Shown here in pieces: positions 47,367-61,337 of a DNA stretch of 64,000 nucleotides. This DNA is from Hyalangium ruber. GTDB taxonomy: Bacteria; Myxococcota; Myxococcia; Myxococcales; Myxococcaceae. Every line of letters begins with the position of its first letter. The first letter of the stretch is position 1. Where the stretch lies: the NCBI RefSeq assembly GCF_034259325.1, contig NZ_JAXIVS010000004.1, positions 496,001-560,000 on the forward strand. Reading direction: 5' to 3'. The translations under genes and the position numbers were made by a program. The notes under the pieces were generated by a model. That model searched no databases. It was not told where the DNA came from and worked only from the letters and a program-made list of their open reading frames with translations.

Positions 47367-50300
47367 TCAAGGCCCGGAAGGGGATGGCGGCGGCGTCTCG
47401 CTCGTGAAGGTGTTCATCCAGGCGCGCAGGGCTTCCGGCTCCAGCGGCAGGTCATCCGGCCAGAGCCGGATGCTGCCGTCCTGTCCCGTGGAGACGAGGC
47501 GCTTGCCGTCCGGGAAGAAGACCACCGCCTCCACCTGCCCGGTGTGGCCTCGCAGCGCGCGGCTCTCGCCGGTGGCCACGTCCCACAGCCGCACGGTCTT
47601 GTCGAGGCTCGCCGAGGCCAGGCGCGTCCCATCGGGCGAGAAGGCCAGGCCCAGCACATCGCCTTGATGCGCCCTCAGCTCGCGGCGCGGCGCTCCCGTC
47701 CGCCCGTCCCAGAGCATCACGCGCCCATCCTTCAGGTTGCGGCTGGCCACCACGTCGCCCAGAGGCGAGTAGCGCACCTCCACGACGTCCCCACCGCCCG
47801 TGTTCTGGTGCAGGCTCTGGCCACTGCCCAGGTCCCAGAACACGAGCTGATCCATTCCTCCCATGACGAGGTGATGGCCGTCCGGGGAGAAGGCCACCGC
47901 GCGCACGGCGCCCTTGTGACCGGGCAGGGGGTGGGACTCGCCCGTCACTACGTTCCACAGTCGCACCGTGCCGTCATCGCCCGCGGAGGCAAGGCTGCCG
48001 CCATCGGGTGAGAACGCGAGCTGCCACACCTTCGCCCCGTGGGCTCCAAGCCGGCGTCCCTTGCCCGAGGCGGGCCTCCACAGCCACACGTCCCCCTTCT
48101 CATCCGCGGTGGCGAGGCTCCCGCCGTCCCCGGAGAAGGTGACGGTCGTGATGGGGGCCTCATGTCCCAGCAGGGGTGGCTGCGCGCTTCCGGTGGCGGA
48201 CACGTACAGGTGAACCCGGCCATCCAGTCCCCCCGCGGCCAGCCACTGACCGTCCGGGGAGAAGCTCATCGCGTCCGGAGCGAAGCCGGGTGCCTCCAAG
48301 AGGGCTTTGCCCGAGGAGTCCTCGAGCAGCCGCAGCTCTCCCTGCTCGGACAGCGCGGCCAGCCGTTGGCCGTCGGAGGAGAGCACCAGCGAGCCCTGGG
48401 GACCCTCGCCCGCCGAGAGCACGTGGTGGGTCTTCGTCTCCATGGAGAAGAGGCGCAACTGCCCATTGAAGCTGGCCACGGCCAGGTGCCGGTCATCCGG
48501 CGAGAACAGGACGAGGTGAGCCTGTTGCCGGGGCCCTCGCAGCACGCGGAACTCTCCGGTCTCCAGCTCCCAGAGGATCGCCGTCCGGTCGGCGCTCGCC
48601 GAGGCGAGGTAGCGGCCATCCGAGGTGACATCCAGGCTGTTGACGAGCCCTTCATGGTGGCTGAGCTCCCGCGTCTGGCGCGTCGTCTGGTTCCACAGCC
48701 GGATCACCCCCTCCTGGGTGCCAATCGCCACCCAGGGTGTGCCCGGCACGAAAGTAAGCGCCGTGCCGATCCCCAGGTTCCGCGCCAGCCGCTGCCCCTG
48801 GCTGGCTCCGGGCGTCCATGCGTGGAGCTCTCCCTGGGTATCCACCGTGAAGAGGCGACCGTCCGGGGAGAATGTCCCCACCGTTGGCCGGACCTGCGTC
48901 CACAGCTGAAAGGACCCTTGCTCCACGTTCCCCAGGGCCGAAGCGGCGTTGCGGTGGCCTCGCACGAACACCCATGAGCCCAGCGGCGACGCCACCAGCT
49001 CCTCGATGCCCTCGACCCCCGTGTGGAACGTGCGGGCCTGCCCCGTGACCAGGTCCCAGGAATGAAGCACGTCATCCGTCTGGGTGGCGGCGAGCAGGCA
49101 CCGGCCCTGGCAGCCCAAGGTGATCGCCGACACGGGCCCCGGCAGCGTCGAGAGGACCTTGACCTCCTGGGTGGTGGGGCTCCACTGGCGCAGGACGCCT
49201 TGTCTGTCGCTGGAGAGGAAGCCCTGGCCTCCCGGGAGCACCCGGATGCGCCACACCTCGTCTTCGTGCCCCTGCAACAGGAGCGGCGCCCTGCCCTGCT
49301 CGAGGGCCCAGACGCGCAGCGTACGGTCGTCGCTGGCGGAGACGAGCGCCTTGCCATCGTCCGTGAAGGCGATGTCATTGATGTGCTGGGTGTGACCGCG
49401 CAACACGGTGACGAAGCCATGGGCCTGGGCGTCCGCTGCGATCGTCCGCGCGGCGGACCAGCGCTCGAAGTCGGGCGGCAGCTGCCGGAGCGGCTCGAGG
49501 GCTTCGTTGGGGGCCTCCTCCACGGTCGCCCGCGCCTTGGTCAGCAGGAGCTCATCGGTCTGGGCCCGCGCCTGCCGCCGGGCCTCATGGGCGGCGTCTC
49601 GCTCGGCGGAGACCCGACGGAAGCTCTCCACGCCCAGGGTGGCGAGCAGCAGCAGGGCCACCGCCGTAACCGACACCGCGGCCCGGTAGCGCCGCACGAA
49701 GCGGCGCACCAGCTCCATCCGCGAATACGCGTACGCCCCGACGATCTGTCCCGTCTGGAAGCGCCGCAAGTCCTCCGCCATCTCGCGCGCGGTGGGGTAG
49801 CGCTCGGCGGGCTGGCGCGCCATCGCCTTGGTCACGATGGCCAGCAGGTCCCTCGGGATGAAGTCCTGGAGGCTGGCGAGCAGGGGCGGCGGGCCGCTCA
49901 TCACCCGCGCCAGGACCTGATCCGAGGTCTCCCCCTCATAAGGACGGGAGCCCGCGAGCAGGTGATAGAGGATGGCGCCCAGGGAATAGACGTCGGCACG
50001 CTCGTCCACGGGCTGGCCCGCGGCCTGCTCCGGTGGCATGTACGCGGGAGTCCCCATCACCGTGCCGACACGGGTCAGGCCTCCATCCATGGAGTTGCCC
50101 CCGGCAGAGCGGGCATCCGGAGCGGCGGGGCTCTCCGTGCGGGAGAGATCCTTGGCCAGACCCCAGTCGATGACCACCGTCTCACCGAACCCTCCCACCA
50201 GGACGTTGGCGGGCTTGAGGTCGCGGTGGATGATCCGCTCGGAGTGGGCATAGGCCATGGCCTCGGCCACCGCCAACACATGAGGCAAGAGGGCCAGCCG

Positions 50301-50768
50301 CTCCTCCAGCGTCCGGGGCTCGGAGAGGACGTCCGCGAGCGAGCGTCCGGAGACGAGCTTCATCGAATAGAAGAGCTCGCCGTCGGGCCAGCGGCCCGCC
50401 TCGTACACCGGCATGATCGACGGGTGCTGCAGCCGAGCGGTGACGAGCGCCTCGGTCATGAAGCGGGACTCGGCCTCCGGAGAGGGCGAGAGCATCTGCT
50501 TGAGGGCCACGGGCCGGCCGAGCCTCAGGTCCCGGGCGCGGAGGATGCGGCCGATGCCGCCGTGCGCGAGCTCTCCCTCCACGAGGTAATACGCGGGGTC
50601 CACCATGGGCACCCGCTGGCCTGGAAGGGGATTCTCCGGGAGCACCCGAGGTGATGGCAGCGTGGCGGCATCCCCGATGCCGGAGACTTCCGGAAGCGAG
50701 GAGGGAGGCTTGGATGGGACCGACGCGTCGGTGGAGACACCCGCTTCGACGGGTCTGGCCTGACTCAT
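47367..50768 (-). CDS. Ser/Thr protein kinase with C-terminal WD40 propeller repeats
   Basis: 1133 residues. The eukaryotic-type kinase (about 57-330) has Gly loop LAHGGIGRI, Lys in VALKQM, HRDLKPANVLV (catalytic Asp), DWG in place of DFG, and GTPAYMPPEQA; all key residues are present. One membrane helix lies near 370-390 (AAVSVTAVALLLLATLG) followed by a short coiled coil. From about 460 there are around 14 WD40-type repeats (for example LASASADRTAILW, LASASLDKTVRLWD), enough for two propellers. The helix places kinase and propellers on opposite sides of the membrane, so the propellers may sense envelope ligands. It starts 30 bp after the gene at 50799 ends, so probably cotranscribed. Confidence 0.92.
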   Translation of the reverse strand: MSQARPVEAGVSTDASVPSKPPSSLPEVSGIGDAATLPSPRVLPENPLPGQRVPMVDPAYYLVEGELAHGGIGRILRARDLRLGRPVALKQMLSPSPEAESRFMTEALVTARLQHPSIMPVYEAGRWPDGELFYSMKLVSGRSLADVLSEPRTLEERLALLPHVLAVAEAMAYAHSERIIHRDLKPANVLVGGFGETVVIDWGLAKDLSRTESPAAPDARSAGGNSMDGGLTRVGTVMGTPAYMPPEQAAGQPVDERADVYSLGAILYHLLAGSRPYEGETSDQVLARVMSGPPPLLASLQDFIPRDLLAIVTKAMARQPAERYPTAREMAEDLRRFQTGQIVGAYAYSRMELVRRFVRRYRAAVSVTAVALLLLATLGVESFRRVSAERDAAHEARRQARAQTDELLLTKARATVEEAPNEALEPLRQLPPDFERWSAARTIAADAQAHGFVTVLRGHTQHINDIAFTDDGKALVSASDDRTLRVWALEQGRAPLLLQGHEDEVWRIRVLPGGQGFLSSDRQGVLRQWSPTTQEVKVLSTLPGPVSAITLGCQGRCLLAATQTDDVLHSWDLVTGQARTFHTGVEGIEELVASPLGSWVFVRGHRNAASALGNVEQGSFQLWTQVRPTVGTFSPDGRLFTVDTQGELHAWTPGASQGQRLARNLGIGTALTFVPGTPWVAIGTQEGVIRLWNQTTRQTRELSHHEGLVNSLDVTSDGRYLASASADRTAILWELETGEFRVLRGPRQQAHLVLFSPDDRHLAVASFNGQLRLFSMETKTHHVLSAGEGPQGSLVLSSDGQRLAALSEQGELRLLEDSSGKALLEAPGFAPDAMSFSPDGQWLAAGGLDGRVHLYVSATGSAQPPLLGHEAPITTVTFSGDGGSLATADEKGDVWLWRPASGKGRRLGAHGAKVWQLAFSPDGGSLASAGDDGTVRLWNVVTGESHPLPGHKGAVRAVAFSPDGHHLVMGGMDQLVFWDLGSGQSLHQNTGGGDVVEVRYSPLGDVVASRNLKDGRVMLWDGRTGAPRRELRAHQGDVLGLAFSPDGTRLASASLDKTVRLWDVATGESRALRGHTGQVEAVVFFPDGKRLVSTGQDGSIRLWPDDLPLEPEALRAWMNTFTSETPPPSPSGP

Positions 50769-55013: not shown

Positions 55014-55112
55014 CGTGGCGCTACCCTCTCACGAAGCACGCCGCCATCCTCCATGCGGCTTGACCGTCCAAGGATGGGGGACATACTGGGAGTGAACAAG
55101 GAGGAAGCACGC

Positions 55113-56636
55113 ATGAGCAACTCACGGAAGGCCCTGGGGGTACTGTCCTGGCTGGTTCTGGCCGCATGTGGTCCTGAGGCGAACCTGCCCTCGGTAGGGA
55201 GCGCTGAAGCGCTGAGCACCAGCCCCCAGCTCATCCGTGCCGAGCACCCCATCCGAGACCAGTACGTGGTCGTGCTCGCGCAGCCGCCCGAGGGCGTGAC
55301 GACCCAAAGCGTGTCCTCGATGGCGACCACGCTCGCGGCCCGTCATGGCGGACAGGTGCTCCAGGTCTACGAGAGGGCCTTGCGTGGCTTCGCGGTGCGC
55401 ATGACGGAGGAGCAGGCGCTCGCGCTCGCCCGCAACCCGGCGGTGGCCTCCGTGGAAGAGGATGGCCTGGTGCAGGTCGACTTCGTCCAGTCCCCTCCGG
55501 GCAACGTGGGGAAGGACCGCATTGATCAGCGCAACCTGCCGCTCGACAACCAGTACACCTACTTCGGCACCGGCGTGGGCACCCACGCCTATGTCATCAG
55601 CACGGGCATCCGCACGACCCATACGGAGTTCGGTGGCCGGGCCACCGGCGACTTCACCGTCATCTCCGACGGCAATGGCGCAAGCGACTGCAACGGTGTC
55701 GGCACCCACTGGGCCGCGGTCATCGGTGGCAACACGTACGGCGTGGCCCGGAGCACCCGCTTGCACTCGGTGCGCGTGCTGAACTGCACGGGCACGGGCA
55801 CCACCTCCGGTGTCATCACCGGCGTGGACTGGGTGACCGCCAACCACATCAAGCCGGCCGTGGCGCTGCTCGGGCTCAGCGGCCCCGCCAGCGCCGCGCT
55901 GGACGCGGCCGTCAACAACTCGATCGCCGCTGGCGTCACCTATGTGGCGTCCGCCGGCAGCAGCGGCGGGGATTCATGCACGCAATCTCCGGCCCGCATC
56001 CCCGCGGTCTTGACCGTGGGCTCCTCCTCCGCCACGGATACGGTGAGTTCCTTCTCGGGCACTGGCAGCTGCGTGGACCTGTTCGCGCCAGGTGCCAACA
56101 TCATCTCGGCCTGGCACACCAACGACACGGCCGTCTCCAACATCAGCGGCTCGGTGGGCGCGGCCTTCGGCGCGGGCGCTGCTGCGCTCTGGCTGGAGGT
56201 CGTCCCTTCGGCCACGCCCGCGGCGGTGAACTCGGCGATCATCAGCAACGCCACCACCGGAGTGCTGACGCCGCCTCCCACGCCGCCCACCCCGAACCGG
56301 CTGCTGTACACGGGCTTCATCGGCTCGCGGCTGAGGGCAGGTACCCCCGTCAGCGACATCTCCAACCCGCAGGCGGATGTGCGCTACTTCCGGCTGGAGG
56401 TTCCGGTGGGCACCACGCAGCTGACCTTCAGCACCAGCGGTGGGACAGGCGATGTGGACCTGTATGTCAAAGCCGGAACGCTGCCCTCCACCAGCACCTA
56501 TGACTGCGCTCCCTTCATTACCGGCAACGCGGAGACCTGCATCCTCAACGCTCCGACACCGGGGACCTGGTACGTCATGCTCCACGGCTTTGCTCCATTC
56601 TCGGCCGTGTCGCTGACGAGCACTGTCACGCAATAG
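55113..56636 (+). CDS. Subtilisin-fold (S8) pseudoprotease lipoprotein with I9 and PPC domains
   Basis: 507 residues from ATG 55113 (SD AAGGAGGA). Lipoprotein signal (SWLVLAACG), I9 prodomain (about 42-120), proteinase K-like S8 domain (125-400) and a pre-peptidase C-terminal (PPC) domain (410-505). Three of four catalytic positions are lost: the Asp of VIDTG is Ser (AYVISTGI, residue 163), the His of GHGTHVAG is Val (NGVGTHWA, 196) and the oxyanion Asn is Ser (ASAGSS, 283). The Ser aligns (ISGSVGAAFG, 347), but the Thr, Met, Pro and His of GTSMAxPHVAG are gone. The frame is intact, so it looks like a maintained non-enzymatic protein, perhaps a decoy, inhibitor or binding protein. Confidence 0.9.
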   Translation: MSNSRKALGVLSWLVLAACGPEANLPSVGSAEALSTSPQLIRAEHPIRDQYVVVLAQPPEGVTTQSVSSMATTLAARHGGQVLQVYERALRGFAVRMTEEQALALARNPAVASVEEDGLVQVDFVQSPPGNVGKDRIDQRNLPLDNQYTYFGTGVGTHAYVISTGIRTTHTEFGGRATGDFTVISDGNGASDCNGVGTHWAAVIGGNTYGVARSTRLHSVRVLNCTGTGTTSGVITGVDWVTANHIKPAVALLGLSGPASAALDAAVNNSIAAGVTYVASAGSSGGDSCTQSPARIPAVLTVGSSSATDTVSSFSGTGSCVDLFAPGANIISAWHTNDTAVSNISGSVGAAFGAGAAALWLEVVPSATPAAVNSAIISNATTGVLTPPPTPPTPNRLLYTGFIGSRLRAGTPVSDISNPQADVRYFRLEVPVGTTQLTFSTSGGTGDVDLYVKAGTLPSTSTYDCAPFITGNAETCILNAPTPGTWYVMLHGFAPFSAVSLTSTVTQ

Positions 56637-56655: not shown

Positions 56656-57681
56656 ATGCACATGAACCTCCAGGCGTGCAGCGCGCTGCTCCTCTTCATC
56701 TCCGCCTGCGCGACGACGGAGCCGAGAGCCAAAGCCCCGCGCCCCCACAGCCAGCGGCTCGCCAACCTTCAGAGCGCGGCGCAGTTGCCCTGGCGAGACG
56801 ATGGGCGGTGTGTGGTGCAAGAGGCATCCCAGCCCTGGGCCGCACTGGTGGAGCGGTGCTACTACGCTCTCGATACGCGGAAGGTCCGCTTCAACGATAG
56901 CGAGGGGCGGTGCGCGGTGGCCTCAGCGGGAGCGATCGCCATGCCAGCGATGGTGGGGATTTGCCTGCTGTCCCAGCCCTACCTGGCAGTGGGAGCCGTG
57001 GTCGTCATCGGCGTCGTGGTGGTGGGCATCGCTATCTCTGAGGAACTGGAGGCTCATGAGCGCAGCCACCGACCTGGCCCCGAGGCTGAGGACTCGGTGG
57101 AAACCGCAAGGCCCGAGTCCCCACCGGTTGCGCCGACAGCGAGAGTTCAGCCAAGCGGGTTGGGCAGAGACTGGTTTCCCCCTCAGCCCCCAGCATCACC
57201 GGATCCGCGAGAGCGTCGGTCGGAATGCACTCCCAAGCGAGTGCCACCCAAGGGGGGAAACTCCTTGCACAACACGTGTGCCGACAATGTCCCGCTCAAC
57301 TCCTTCCGGGGCGCCAACGCGCTCGTCAACGGTAAAGCCTTCGATGCGCTGCAACCGGCCACACGCACTCTCTGGGAGGTCAAGACCGACAACTTCGACA
57401 CGTACTCGCCCGCCCTTCAGAGCATCGTGAGCAGGAAACAAGTGATGGAACTGCGTTCGTCTCGGACACGGGGAGCTGGGCCGGTGCAGCCCCGCGCGCG
57501 TCCAAGCTCGCCTGCCGGGCCCGCGCGCGCCGCGTCGGACACGGGAGCTGGTCCCGGTGCAGCCCGCGCGCGCCGCGTCGGACAGGTGGAGCCGGGCGCG
57601 GCGCAGCCCCCGCGCGTCGAGGCGGGCCTGCCGGGCCTCATGGAGCCCGCGCGCATCGGTCAGGTGGAGCGGGCCCCGTAG
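56656..57681 (+). pseudogene. SitA-like DUF6310 toxin lipoprotein, 5-prime part, interrupted
   Basis: From ATG 56656 (SD CGGAGG). Signal MNLQACSALLLFISAC (lipobox), an N-terminal Cys-rich region, two close membrane helices (about 100-130), a Pro-rich linker, then a DUF6310-type domain: ECTPKRVPPKGGNSLHNTC, NVPLNSFRGANALVNGKAFD and TLWEVKTDNFDTYSPALQ. The E-x-K core resembles PD-(D/E)XK nucleases. True coding ends at 57454. The frame then runs 75 residues into repeat DNA and stops at 57681. The severed C-terminus is at 60340-60467; joined, they give a 308-residue protein with a normal family ending. Confidence 0.85.
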
Positions 57682-57812
57682 AGCCCTCGCGCGCGTCGGA
57701 CAGATGGAGCGGGGCGCGGTGGAGCGCGCCAGGATGAGAGAAACCGTCGAGGGCTCCCAGCTCAGCCCGGTGGAGCGCGCGCGTCGGACAGCGCCAGCTT
57801 GCCCGTGGAGGC
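57458..57812. repeat. Left repeat array of the cassette
   Basis: One clear 75-bp copy (57458-57532: CG..TCGGACACGGGGAGCTGG, then GCCGGTGCAGCCCCGCGC..., then GCTCGCCTGC) is followed by partial copies from 57533, 57576 and about 57690, each starting with GTCGGACA. A variant GTCGGACAGCGCCAGCT near 57786 recurs at 60074 on the right side. Same orientation as the right array. Confidence 0.75.
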
Positions 57813-58107
57813 CGCAACGATGTTGGGCACGTTGTGATCGGTGGGAGCTGGCAAGCGTCCAGGCAGGCCGTGGAGCCGCGACGACCTGGGAGCGTGGCGA
57901 GCAACCCGGCAGGCATGACACCCGAAGCGGGGCGGCGCCACCTGGGAAGGAAGCGGGGACGTGGCGAACAGCCAGGCGTCAGCATCGGGCGGGAGCCGCC
58001 CCCGCAGGGTGGGCGGGGGTGCAAAACGGGCGTCACCCGTCGGCTCCTCCTCTTCTCTGTTGCAGCCCTCTAGCCTGCGCCCTTGCTCGCAAGAAGGGGG
58101 GTGACAC
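57813..58107. other. Non-coding leader of the SitA-like toxin gene
   Basis: About 295 bp without a credible gene, following the repeat array. It ends in a good RBS (AAGGGGGGTGA) before the GTG at 58108. It probably contains the toxin promoter, but no clear -35/-10 was seen. Confidence 0.5.
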
Positions 58108-59463
58108 GTGAATCTTTGGCGGCTGCTGTGGAAGGCCGAAGCGCTGTTCCTGGTGTTGTGCGTGGGGTGCAGCAGCATCCCGAAGGTCCCCCGCGTGGAG
58201 GACACCGGCCAGGGTAGAGCCGTTGTCCACCTTCCCCGCACCGCTGACGTGCAACCCGTCGTGGTGGACCGCGAGGAATTCCAGCAGGCCATGAGGCGCC
58301 TTGCGCGTGAGGTGCGGCTGTCAGGCACTCCGCGTCAGACGGTGGAGAAGATGTTTCAGATGGACCCGCAGTTCGGCAACTACCTCTGGCTGCAAAAGGA
58401 CCGGAAGCTGGTGTCGCTGGGGCCGGGCGAGCCTCTGGAAGGGGCGTTGACGAAAGACGACCTTGCGACGGCGGAGCGCTACCGGCTCTGGTGCCAACGC
58501 GTTTACAACGTCTACGGCGACTGTCTCGGGGGGGCGCTGGTGGCAGGGCGCTACCTGGACATGCACGGCCGCTACATCTGGGCACTGGCTCTCAGTAAGA
58601 GCCCGGTCATTGACGAGATGAAGAAGGCGCTGGGGGAGATGGTGGAAGTGCGCGCGCTCATCCAAACGGTCTTGTGGACGTTGGGGTCCATGCTGCTGAT
58701 CATGGCGATCAACCCGGTGGCTCCGGCGCTGGTGGCGGTGATCGGAGTGGGACTGATTCTGTATGTCGGCGTTGACACGCTGATCAACCTGGTGAACGGC
58801 TGGAGTCGGTTGATGGACGAGGTGAAGGTGGCGGCCACCTTCGAGCAGATCCGCGATGCGGGAGAGCGTTTCGGGAAGATCATCGGGCGAGAGGCAGCGC
58901 GCGCGTTCGTCTTGCTGCTGATGGCGGCCATCGGCTCGACGGCGCAGCTGTTCGCGGCAAAGGTGCCAACGCTGCCCGGCTCGGCGCAGGTGGCCGCGCA
59001 GGCCGAGGGCACGGCCAGAATCTCGGTGTCCGCGTTGGGCTCGGTGGAGGAGATCGCGCTCGGCGCCGAGGGCGTGAGCGTGACGGTGGCGGCCACGGCA
59101 GTGACGATGGGAGCCAGTGGCAGTGGCGGCACGGGCCCCTGTATCGAGACGCACCACATCGCCACTGTCTGCAACGACAAGGACACCAAACGTGGGGGCC
59201 CGTGGACACCGAGGTTCCGGCAGATCTTCGCCAAGGCGGGAATGTCGATGGAGGATCCGGCGAACAAGATGCCTCTGCCGGGCCACTATGGACCGCACCC
59301 TGAGCGGTATCACCAACTCGTCCTCAAGGAACTGGACGATGCCACGTTGAACTGTCGTAGCGTCGTGGAGTGCCGTGAGGGGTTGACGCGGGCCCTCAAG
59401 GCTCTGGCGAAGGAAATCGCAACCCCGGGGACAGAGCTGAACCAACTCGTCACCCGGCAGTAA
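58108..59463 (+). CDS. SitA-like polymorphic toxin lipoprotein with AHH nuclease domain
   Basis: 451 residues from GTG 58108. Signal MNLWRLLWKAEALFLVLCVGC (split lipobox CVGC, residue about 21), a conserved SitA N-region (DTGQGRAVVHLPRTADVQP), then helices including a hydrophobic pair (about 188-230: LWTLGSMLLIMAINPVAPAL) and another (about 265-285). The C-terminal toxin (345-440) has ETHHIATVCN, WTPRFRQIFAKAGMSM, NKMPLPGHYGPHPERYH, the AHH family of HNH-like nucleases. SitA proteins move between myxobacterial cells by TraA/B-dependent outer-membrane exchange and kill non-immune siblings. The paired imm11 gene starts 18 bp later. Confidence 0.88.
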   Translation: MNLWRLLWKAEALFLVLCVGCSSIPKVPRVEDTGQGRAVVHLPRTADVQPVVVDREEFQQAMRRLAREVRLSGTPRQTVEKMFQMDPQFGNYLWLQKDRKLVSLGPGEPLEGALTKDDLATAERYRLWCQRVYNVYGDCLGGALVAGRYLDMHGRYIWALALSKSPVIDEMKKALGEMVEVRALIQTVLWTLGSMLLIMAINPVAPALVAVIGVGLILYVGVDTLINLVNGWSRLMDEVKVAATFEQIRDAGERFGKIIGREAARAFVLLLMAAIGSTAQLFAAKVPTLPGSAQVAAQAEGTARISVSALGSVEEIALGAEGVSVTVAATAVTMGASGSGGTGPCIETHHIATVCNDKDTKRGGPWTPRFRQIFAKAGMSMEDPANKMPLPGHYGPHPERYHQLVLKELDDATLNCRSVVECREGLTRALKALAKEIATPGTELNQLVTRQ

Positions 59464-59481
59464 CCACATTAAACGGAGCCT

Positions 59482-60045
59482 ATGCCCAAGCGTTTTTTCG
59501 AACTAGCCGACGATGTGAATGTCCCGCACCGATGGCACCTTGACATGCCGACGAACAGTCGCGGCGAGCAAGTGGACGAGGGGCTTTTCAGGCGCGGGGC
59601 CCCCGTCCACATCACGGATCGCTTGAGGATTACCGTCGAGATCGCGGGCCAGCCGCTGGACTTCACTTTTGCAGCCGTCGGCCTCCCGGTGGTCCATGTC
59701 CGCGTGGCGTCTATGTTCGCGGAGATGGCCCCGGACGACGTGCAACTGATCCCCGTGGACGTGGCGGGCCAACCGGATCAGCACCTCATCCTCGTGGCCA
59801 CGCGCCTCATCCGCTGTATCGACGAACAGGCGTCCCGGATCCGTCTCTGGACTCACGAAGACGGAGCCCCGCACATGGTCGGTCGCTATGCCTCCGTGCG
59901 TGACATGCGTATCGACAAGGCCAAGGCGGGCAGCGCCAACGTGTTCCGTTGCGAAGGGTGGATAGGCCCGCTGATCGTCTCCGGGGAGATCAAGGACGCA
60001 TTGGAGGGCATGGGCGCCACAGGCACGAGGTTCGAGGAGGTCTAG
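59482..60045 (+). CDS. Imm11-family immunity protein paired with the AHH toxin
   Basis: 187 residues from ATG 59482 (SD CGGAG). A paralogue of the protein at 37137: RFFELADDVN, RITVEIAGQPLDF, PVVHVRVASMF, VQLIPVDVAGQPDQHLIL, MGATGTRFEEV. Cytoplasmic, no signal. By family and position it should bind and neutralise the AHH nuclease encoded just upstream. It is the second gene of the inserted cassette. Confidence 0.87.
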   Translation: MPKRFFELADDVNVPHRWHLDMPTNSRGEQVDEGLFRRGAPVHITDRLRITVEIAGQPLDFTFAAVGLPVVHVRVASMFAEMAPDDVQLIPVDVAGQPDQHLILVATRLIRCIDEQASRIRLWTHEDGAPHMVGRYASVRDMRIDKAKAGSANVFRCEGWIGPLIVSGEIKDALEGMGATGTRFEEV

Positions 60046-60108
60046 TCCGGGCTTGGAGGGGCGGCGTCCCGCGTCGGACAGCGCCAGCTCGGGCCGTGGA
60101 GCGGGCCG

Positions 60109-60339
60109 CGTCGGACATGGGGAGCTGGGCCGGTGCAGCCCTCGCGCCTCCAGGCTCGCCTGCTGGGCCGGTGCAGCGCGCGCCACGTCGGACACAGGAA
60201 GTTGGGCCGGTGCAGCCCCGCACGTCGAGGCTCGCCTGCTGAGCCTCGTGGAGCGTGCGCCACGTGGGGCACGGAGAGCTGGGCCGGTGCGGCCCTCGCG
60301 CCTCCAGGCTCGCCTGCTGGGCCGGTGCAGCGGAACTGC
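60109..60339. repeat. Right repeat array: three tandem 77-bp units
   Basis: Units at 60109-60185, 60186-60262 and 60263-60339 have an exact 77-bp period. Each reads CGTCGGACA(T/C).GG..GCTGGGCCGGTGCAGCCC, then CGAGGCTCGCCTGCTG-like sequence. GCTGGGCCGGTGCAGC occurs twice per unit. The last unit ends at the 8-bp GGAACTGC that abuts the severed toxin gene. An additional diverged copy lies at 60071-60108. Confidence 0.85.
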
Positions 60340-60467
60340 AGCGCGAGCGCAGCCTCGCAATGGCCTGTGGATTTGACTTCCAGGTTGGCGTGCGCAGCGC
60401 CGCGCACAAAGCCGCTCTGGAGCGTGAGGCCCCCGACCTCACCATCGTCATCATGACCTGGTGCTGA
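60340..60467 (+). pseudogene. 3-prime end of the interrupted DUF6310 toxin gene
   Basis: Encodes (C)AG-RERSLAMACGFDFQVGVR, then SAAHKAALEREAPDLTIVIM and TWC-stop. This is the C-terminal half of the DUF6310 domain and continues in frame from codon 266 of the 5-prime part once the cassette is removed. No start codon or RBS of its own is needed to explain it. Confidence 0.85.
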
Positions 60468-60524
60468 GCAGCAGCCGCCACCAGGCTTGCGACCGGAGTG
60501 GACACCGCTCAAGGTTCATCATCT

Positions 60525-61337
60525 ATGGGAACGTGGCTCAACCTTGCCTTCATCCAAAGTGCGGACACGAACCAGGTAGAGAAGGAACTCTCGCGCTTGT
60601 TGACGGAGGGAGGCCGACGGCTCACGACGCCCAAGCCGCGAACTCCAGCCCCGTACGATCCCATGCAATATGGGCTCGGCGACGAAGTTCAACGCTGGGG
60701 CGTGGCGGGCTTTCAAGGCGCCCCGGGTTGGACAGTGCTGCGCACCGCGCCCTTCGAGCTGCTCATGCAGGGCAACCCGCCGCTTCTCGCACGCCTTGCC
60801 GCGCGCCTGGGCGTGCCAGCCTTCCAGTACAACATCTACGATTCCACCTCGGACTTCCTGCTGGAGGTGGATGGCGGTGGGCGCGTGGAGCGCTCCGGGT
60901 TCGTGGGAGTGGATGTGACGCGCTACTGGGGCAGCCACCCTCCAGAGGACCGCTTCAACGTGCGCTTTCACCTCATCGACCCATCAGCCGTTGCTTCATG
61001 GGCAGCGGAGGCGATGCCAGAGGCACGCGTTGCCGGGTGGTGGCCCGACTCCAGCAGTGCACAGGAGCAGGCGGACCTGCTGCATTGGCTCGGCGAGATA
61101 GGCGCCGACATCGACCGTGGCGTCTACACGTGGCGAGCCCATCCCGCCCATGTCGTTCGGAAGCTCGCGAGCGCACCAAGCGTCTTTCTCCCCACCGAGG
61201 GGTGCGTTGACGAGGCCATCATGACCGTGTTCGGTGGGCCCAATTCCACGCACTGCGACAACCTTTTCCTCGTGCAGACGCTCGTCCCTCACGCGCGCAT
61301 GCCGGTGGCTGGGTTCGTGCTGTACGCAGAAATCTGA
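60525..61337 (+). CDS. Probable immunity protein for the interrupted DUF6310 toxin
   Basis: 270 residues from ATG 60525 (the frame opens at GTG 60498, but MGTWLNLAFIQ is the more protein-like start). No signal or membrane helix. Alpha/beta composition with PAFQYNIYDSTSDFLLEV, RSGFVGVDVTRYWG and VYTWRAHPAHVVRKLA. No named domain. Its position 57 bp after the natural stop of the DUF6310 gene, where immunity genes sit in SitA-like loci, and its cytoplasmic nature support an immunity role. It remains intact although its toxin gene is broken. Confidence 0.7.
   Translation: MGTWLNLAFIQSADTNQVEKELSRLLTEGGRRLTTPKPRTPAPYDPMQYGLGDEVQRWGVAGFQGAPGWTVLRTAPFELLMQGNPPLLARLAARLGVPAFQYNIYDSTSDFLLEVDGGGRVERSGFVGVDVTRYWGSHPPEDRFNVRFHLIDPSAVASWAAEAMPEARVAGWWPDSSSAQEQADLLHWLGEIGADIDRGVYTWRAHPAHVVRKLASAPSVFLPTEGCVDEAIMTVFGGPNSTHCDNLFLVQTLVPHARMPVAGFVLYAEI

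Follow-up and report, generated by a model that had tools for sequence, protein, structure and literature searches.

A subtilisin-fold pseudoprotease maintained by purifying selection in Hyalangium ruber and related myxobacteria

Does a subtilisin-like gene whose product lacks the catalytic residues of its family represent a protease in decay, or a protein that has been kept in an inactive form and, if so, in what role? This question is raised by a gene of Hyalangium ruber, which lies in the 64,000-nucleotide stretch of DNA that we analyzed (hereafter, the window). The reading frame and coordinates of the gene were verified as exact, and its start Met is identical in four full-length orthologues. 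The gene and its parts are the following:

55113..56636, + strand: pseudo-subtilisin gene, 507 aa, with signal peptide/lipobox, I9 prodomain, S8 domain and PPC domain
55060..55087, + strand: promoter-like element TTGAC-N19-TACT, from a promoter scan, with the same spacing upstream of all five copies
55098..55104, + strand: ribosome-binding site AAGGAGG, preceding the ATG at 55113, from sequence
55113..55169, + strand: predicted type II (lipoprotein) signal peptide, lipobox LVLAAC, Cys19, from sequence
55263..55478, + strand: Inhibitor_I9 prodomain, residues 51-122 (Pfam, E 1.6e-9)
55506..56318, + strand: S8 (proteinase K/aqualysin-type) domain, residues 132-402 (Pfam Peptidase_S8, 6.5e-20), predicted to be catalytically dead
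56376..56585, + strand: PPC domain, residues 422-491 (Pfam, E 2.5e-18)

The prodomain, S8 core and PPC domain named in the preliminary description of this locus were all recovered as Pfam matches, and the combination of an S8 domain with an I9 prodomain is that of the proteinase K subfamily of S8. The protein is probably a lipid-anchored lipoprotein, because its signal peptide ends in the lipobox LVLAAC; a hydrophobic signal followed by a lipobox, as in bacterial lipoproteins generally, is present in all five copies (LxLSAC in the four orthologues) and had escaped mention before. Both the ribosome-binding site and the promoter-like element are retained among the orthologues. It should be noted that the conservation of TTGAC-N19-TACT is effectively one or two independent comparisons, because four of the five copies are closely related.

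The window protein was aligned residue by residue to aqualysin I (4dzt, E 6e-87) and to a keratinase, and the catalytic positions were read from this alignment:

55599..55601, + strand: catalytic Asp position, Ser163, codon AGC; Ser, encoded by AGC, in 5/5 copies
55698..55700, + strand: catalytic His position, Val196, codon GTC; Val in 5/5 copies
55959..55961, + strand: oxyanion Asn position, Ser283, codon AGC; Ile in the four orthologues
56142..56177, + strand: former nucleophile loop, GTSMASPHVAG changed to GSVGAAFGAG; one-residue deletion common to 5/5 copies

The replacements of Asp by Ser163, of His by Val196 and of the oxyanion Asn by Ser283, originally proposed from an alignment by eye, were confirmed. 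The Ser-loop motif is, as had been stated, largely gone, and this statement can be refined. Active relatives have the consensus GTSMA(S/T)PHVAG, whereas the window protein has GSVGAAFGAG, in which VGAA stands where MASP or MAAP is expected (in all five copies), and the one-residue deletion removes the Thr of the GTS motif in each of them. Because of this conserved deletion, Ser347 of the window protein, read across the gap, still stands at or beside the nucleophile position, where the four orthologues have Gly. The motif of the substrate-binding strand is also gone (ANMSLGG to ALLGLSG); neither this change nor the deletion had been described earlier. Further changes common to the five copies are Trp at V200 and Leu at N252. 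An active enzyme has the Asp/His/Ser triad and the oxyanion Asn; since Asp, His and the oxyanion Asn are all absent here, proteolysis and self-cleavage of the prodomain are not expected, and the window protein is predicted from its residues to be a true, catalytically dead pseudoprotease. The preliminary description also pointed out that the Asp-to-Ser and His-to-Val replacements require two base changes each, which agrees with the codons AGC and GTC, and took this as a sign of selection for inactivity. This argument is weak, because two-step changes are unremarkable over the divergence in question; the evidence lies in conservation among relatives.

Full-length orthologues are present in 5 of the 96 genomes of the family, counting the window's own genome. 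The other four copies, 64-66% identical to the window protein, belong to C. sicarius, C. llansteffanensis, Corallococcus sp. CA053C and a member of another genus (G079). D163S, H196V, an Asn loss and the Ser-loop deletion are common to these five copies from three genera. In a maximum-likelihood tree of 57 rows, the five pseudoproteases form one clade with 100/100 support and a single label change; the neighbours of this clade are S8 proteins with intact motifs, several of them with two PPC domains. Two rows with stop codons inside the chosen range were left out of the analysis. L071 and L072 are active S8 orthologues. Catalytic loss happened once, in the ancestor of the five known copies, since these share their lesions and form a single fully supported clade. 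A profile of the five copies, run against 145 genomes from the order and 195 from the phylum, revealed no further pseudoprotease among the best matches examined, and the next best matches (L002, L077, L078 and L079) have D, H, S and N intact. When 84,980 species genomes were scanned with a pattern, the three Corallococcus copies were the only ones found at this similarity. The genome of H. ruber itself has about 18 aqualysin-type paralogues, nearly all with intact motifs, and the window gene is the only one among them in which the triad is gone. One S8 paralogue of this genome (L018, C19:136-1266) has the oxyanion Asn changed to Asp and an internal TAG, and is possibly a pseudogene.

Pairwise codon models yielded omega values of 0.086-0.177 in all ten pairs, with 2dlnL versus omega = 1 ranging from 27 to 210. 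Per-domain values were about 0.08-0.17 for the prodomain, the S8 domain and the PPC domain, barring one short, uninformative PPC comparison. For active S8 proteases the corresponding omega was 0.34-0.43 in Corallococcus pairs, the only usable part of this control, as comparisons across genera are saturated and may mix paralogues. We also considered 85 near-invariant columns, with a conservation of 90% or more among 54 homologues, most of which have intact catalytic motifs. In the five copies, 63 of these are unchanged, 12 are altered in every copy (163, 196, 200, 252, 254, 283, the Thr deletion, 348, 349, 351, 352 and 353) and 10 are mixed; every one of the 12 lies at a catalytic residue, the oxyanion site, the Ser helix or the substrate-binding strand. 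The Cys pairs 193/225/289/320 are retained, and so are positions 135, 138, 139 and 322, the counterparts of calcium ligands of proteinase K and aqualysin. A loss limited to the active site of a preserved fold is the reverse of decay. With its S8 fold, lost catalytic residues, purifying selection and occurrence in orthologues, the window protein is a subtilisin-fold pseudoprotease, kept by purifying selection since the loss.

The structural comparison proposed in the preliminary description agrees with this fold. An AlphaFold2 model based on a 15-row alignment had a mean pLDDT of 75 and a pTM of 0.74. With VIA-align, this model was superposed on PCSK9 with its prodomain at Z 39.7 (332 residues, rmsd 2.3 A), on aqualysin I at Z 38.9 (267 residues, rmsd 2.3 A) and on unautoprocessed pro-subtilisin E at Z 38.8 (329 residues, rmsd 2.6 A). 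Such model-based matches to S8 structures (Z 35-39), including unprocessed pro-subtilisins, bear on the fold only; CspC was not among the structure matches listed.

The gene is mobile, and its surroundings are not conserved. The fourfold-site difference between the Corallococcus and G079 copies is 0.11-0.14, versus 0.26-0.28 for gyrB and parE-like genes; therefore, the gene moved between Corallococcus and the genus of G079 after their split. The distance of the window copy to each of these is about 0.36 at fourfold sites. DNA similarity between the Corallococcus and G079 loci begins about 50 bp before the gene and ends about 13 bp after it, neighbours are not shared, and the neighbouring genes differ in every genus that carries the pseudo-subtilisin. 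The context points to no partner, because synteny is not conserved. Neither the window nor the orthologous loci have an S8 protease beside the gene; the nearest protease gene, in Corallococcus only, encodes an M4 metallopeptidase with a PPC domain, 2-5 kb downstream. In the window, a DUF6310 gene follows on the same strand after 19 bp, but it is split by about 2.9 kb with GC-rich repeats and a toxin/immunity pair:

56656-60464, + strand: split DUF6310 gene, HMM positions 3-89 at 57208-57468 and 81-126 at 60327-60464
58108-59463: SitA5-family AHH nuclease toxin (NCBIfam, 308 bits)
59482-60045: Imm11 (Pfam)

The toxin/Imm11 pair most likely arrived late, because it sits inside the split DUF6310 gene, and the SitA5-type toxin cassette is absent from all four orthologous loci. 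An 8-bp direct repeat, GGAACTGC, occurs near both edges of the interruption, as after insertion. Degenerate GC-rich repeat arrays (57462-57725 and 60074-60333) flank the pair on both sides, with units of about 37-43 and 77 bp (TCGGACA...GGGCCGGTGCAGCC), and could serve in the exchange of cassettes. The pseudo-S8 gene of C. sicarius is followed directly on its 3' side by a DUF5953-DUF6310 cassette on the other strand; the sister species C. llansteffanensis and C. sp. CA053C lack it. The corresponding 3-kb segment of C. sicarius (L031, 9580-12549) includes DUF5953, DUF6310 and a 70% homologue of the window ORF at 60498-61337, and has the short repeat TTGACTGGAA at both edges. The genome of the window has 16 DUF6310 matches, versus 3-6 in the four other genomes searched, and we found no paper on DUF6310 in the open-access literature searched. 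Elsewhere in the window (47367-50768, - strand), a protein kinase is fused to WD40 repeats (1133 aa). Since the neighbours are not conserved and the toxin pair is probably a later arrival, the toxin context says little on the function of the pseudo-subtilisin. The toxin loci, which had been offered as a functional clue, are thus of little help: the toxin lies within a split gene, and the orthologues are without these neighbours, except for the DUF6310 cassette of C. sicarius.

How might the inactive protein work? We consider it probable, with some reserve, that it is a surface lipoprotein with an uncleavable prodomain that acts by binding, probably via its PPC domain. The ancestor would have been an exported subtilase of the aqualysin/proteinase K type with a single PPC domain, probably lipid-anchored, in which Asp, His, the oxyanion Asn and the Ser loop were lost once before the five copies diverged, with purifying selection afterwards. 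The prodomain should stay attached, because the dead core cannot cut its own prodomain; by analogy with CspC, the I9 prodomain would remain covalently linked and cap the S8 domain, unless another protease cuts it. The capped S8 core would then be a stable scaffold, and the PPC domain the most likely binding face for a cell-surface protein. In protease E495, the PPC domains bind proteins by way of D26, D28, Y30 and Y/W65 (PMC3327674). The GD-x-D-L-Y motif of the window protein places the E495 binding residues at D447, D449, Y451 and, less certainly, Y487, which are invariant in the five copies. Binding by the PPC domain is favoured because the protein-binding residues known from other secreted proteases are retained in it. 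There is no clear sign that the old cleft is a binding site, as its new residues are about as conserved as the remainder of the S8 domain. A shift in domain rates towards the PPC domain looked promising with the nearest active proteins, but faded with more controls and was rejected: the PPC/S8 identity ratio across genera is 1.05-1.07, versus 0.68-1.11 in active pairs, i.e., at the top of the range and not outside it. The relative conservation of the PPC domain does not separate binding from a regulatory or a decoy role. Of the cell-surface roles suggested in the preliminary description, the surface location and a binding or regulatory function are the most reasonable reading, given the lipobox and the PPC domain.

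Regulation of active sibling S8 proteases, which the uncleaved I9 prodomain or a heteromer would inhibit, fold or stabilize, is a possible but rather unlikely role. It could draw on the numerous paralogues, most of them with intact motifs, on purifying selection on the prodomain, and on the precedent of CspC:CspA acting around CspB; however, no active S8 protease adjoins the gene in any orthologue (the M4 gene of Corallococcus is the nearest), and of the three domains the prodomain has the lowest conservation (57-62% identity). We regard as unlikely a decoy role, in which the protein would absorb the protease inhibitors or the proteolytic attack of prey or competitors and thereby shield active extracellular proteases. 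The retained fold and surface with catalysis removed, the putative surface anchoring and the patchy, horizontally moved distribution, which fits a conflict gene, are all consistent with such a role, but the sites that canonical inhibitors hold, namely the S1 strand (SLGG) and the Ser loop, have been rewritten too, so that classical inhibitors would bind poorly.

The remaining alternatives carry less weight than these. That the protein is an accessory to toxin delivery, as part of the neighbouring SitA-type locus, is improbable: the same-strand DUF6310 gene downstream, the SitA5-family toxin with Imm11 next to it and the DUF6310 cassette 3' of the C. sicarius gene would fit, but the toxin cassette interrupts DUF6310 and none of the four orthologous loci has it, the cassette of C. 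sicarius runs on the opposite strand and is missing from two sister species, and SitB, which has a type I signal, no known homology and an overlap with sitA, differs from the window protein with its lipobox, S8 fold and lack of toxin-gene overlap. Membership in a toxin operon was rejected, as neighbours are not conserved and the cassette interrupts DUF6310. A hydrolase with rearranged catalytic residues is very improbable. Among prokaryotes, subtilase subfamilies that use other catalytic residues are on record (Siezen 2007, as cited in PMC2605481), but no acidic or basic residue replaces D or H here, the nucleophile position is Gly in 4/5 copies and the oxyanion residue is Ile in 4/5. Decay of the gene has a negligible probability: its presence in only 5 of 96 family genomes would be compatible with it, but the five copies are free of stops and frameshifts, framework residues are retained and omega is about 0.1, with 2dlnL up to 210. 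We rejected decay on this omega and on the shared lesions. The preliminary description had taken unshared substitutions and relaxed selection as the marks of a decaying gene; in fact, four orthologues share the substitutions and dN/dS is 0.09-0.18, in line with its proposal of a maintained inactive homologue under strong purifying selection.

Among known systems, aqualysin I (55% identity in the structural alignment), the Meiothermus keratinase (50%, likewise) and proteinase K have the same fold and the same disulfide and Ca-ligand positions, whereas the window protein lacks their Asp, His and oxyanion Asn and has a rewritten Ser loop, a lipobox and a PPC domain. The nearest relatives are the active myxobacterial S8-PPC proteins L002 (a paralogue in the same genome), L077, L078 and L079 (46-54% identity), which have the same architecture with one or two PPC domains but in which D, H, S and the oxyanion N are all intact. 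Prokaryotes are known to have inactive serine protease homologues, and a survey of five families counted 42 among 966 (PMC2605481); we found no paper on a myxobacterial or PPC-bearing inactive subtilase in the open-access literature searched. As far as we found in that literature, the window protein is an unreported, independently evolved subtilisin-fold pseudoprotease. CspC of Clostridioides difficile, a bacterial subtilisin-like pseudoprotease, acts in signalling, and its prodomain is uncleaved because its triad is substituted (PMC6636752); it forms a CspC:CspA heterodimer (PMC12880746). CspC/CspA and the window protein have in common the S8 fold, catalytic loss, a kept prodomain and a non-proteolytic role, which for the window protein we infer. 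The Csp proteins, however, are spore proteins with a jelly-roll insert of about 130 residues, have lost two triad residues and are encoded with active CspB, whereas the window protein belongs to the proteinase K type and is putatively a surface lipoprotein, with a PPC domain and no linked partner; its S8 core (129-400) aligns to aqualysin 5-274 with gaps of only 1-2 residues, and no active Csp protease is encoded with it in the window or orthologous loci. That a horizontally moving, lipid-anchored pseudoprotease might be a surface receptor or secreted-protease regulator, as an independent Gram-negative counterpart of CspC/CspA, is speculative, and we hold it to be doubtful. Plasmodium PIMMS2 is likewise a subtilisin-like pseudoenzyme without HGT and GTS motifs and with a surface or secreted role, but it is eukaryotic, has a transmembrane domain and varies in degeneracy between orthologues (PMC5520436). 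PCSK9, among the best structural matches, has a proteinase-K-like fold and a prodomain that stays bound, and acts by binding; it differs in having no PPC domain. PCSK9 also keeps its triad for self-cleavage. Many pseudoproteases have been guessed from single sequences, whereas here there are one ancestral loss, selection across genera and many active paralogues in the same genomes. The locus therefore offers a comparison case for a protease fold without proteolysis, in predatory bacteria rich in secreted proteases.
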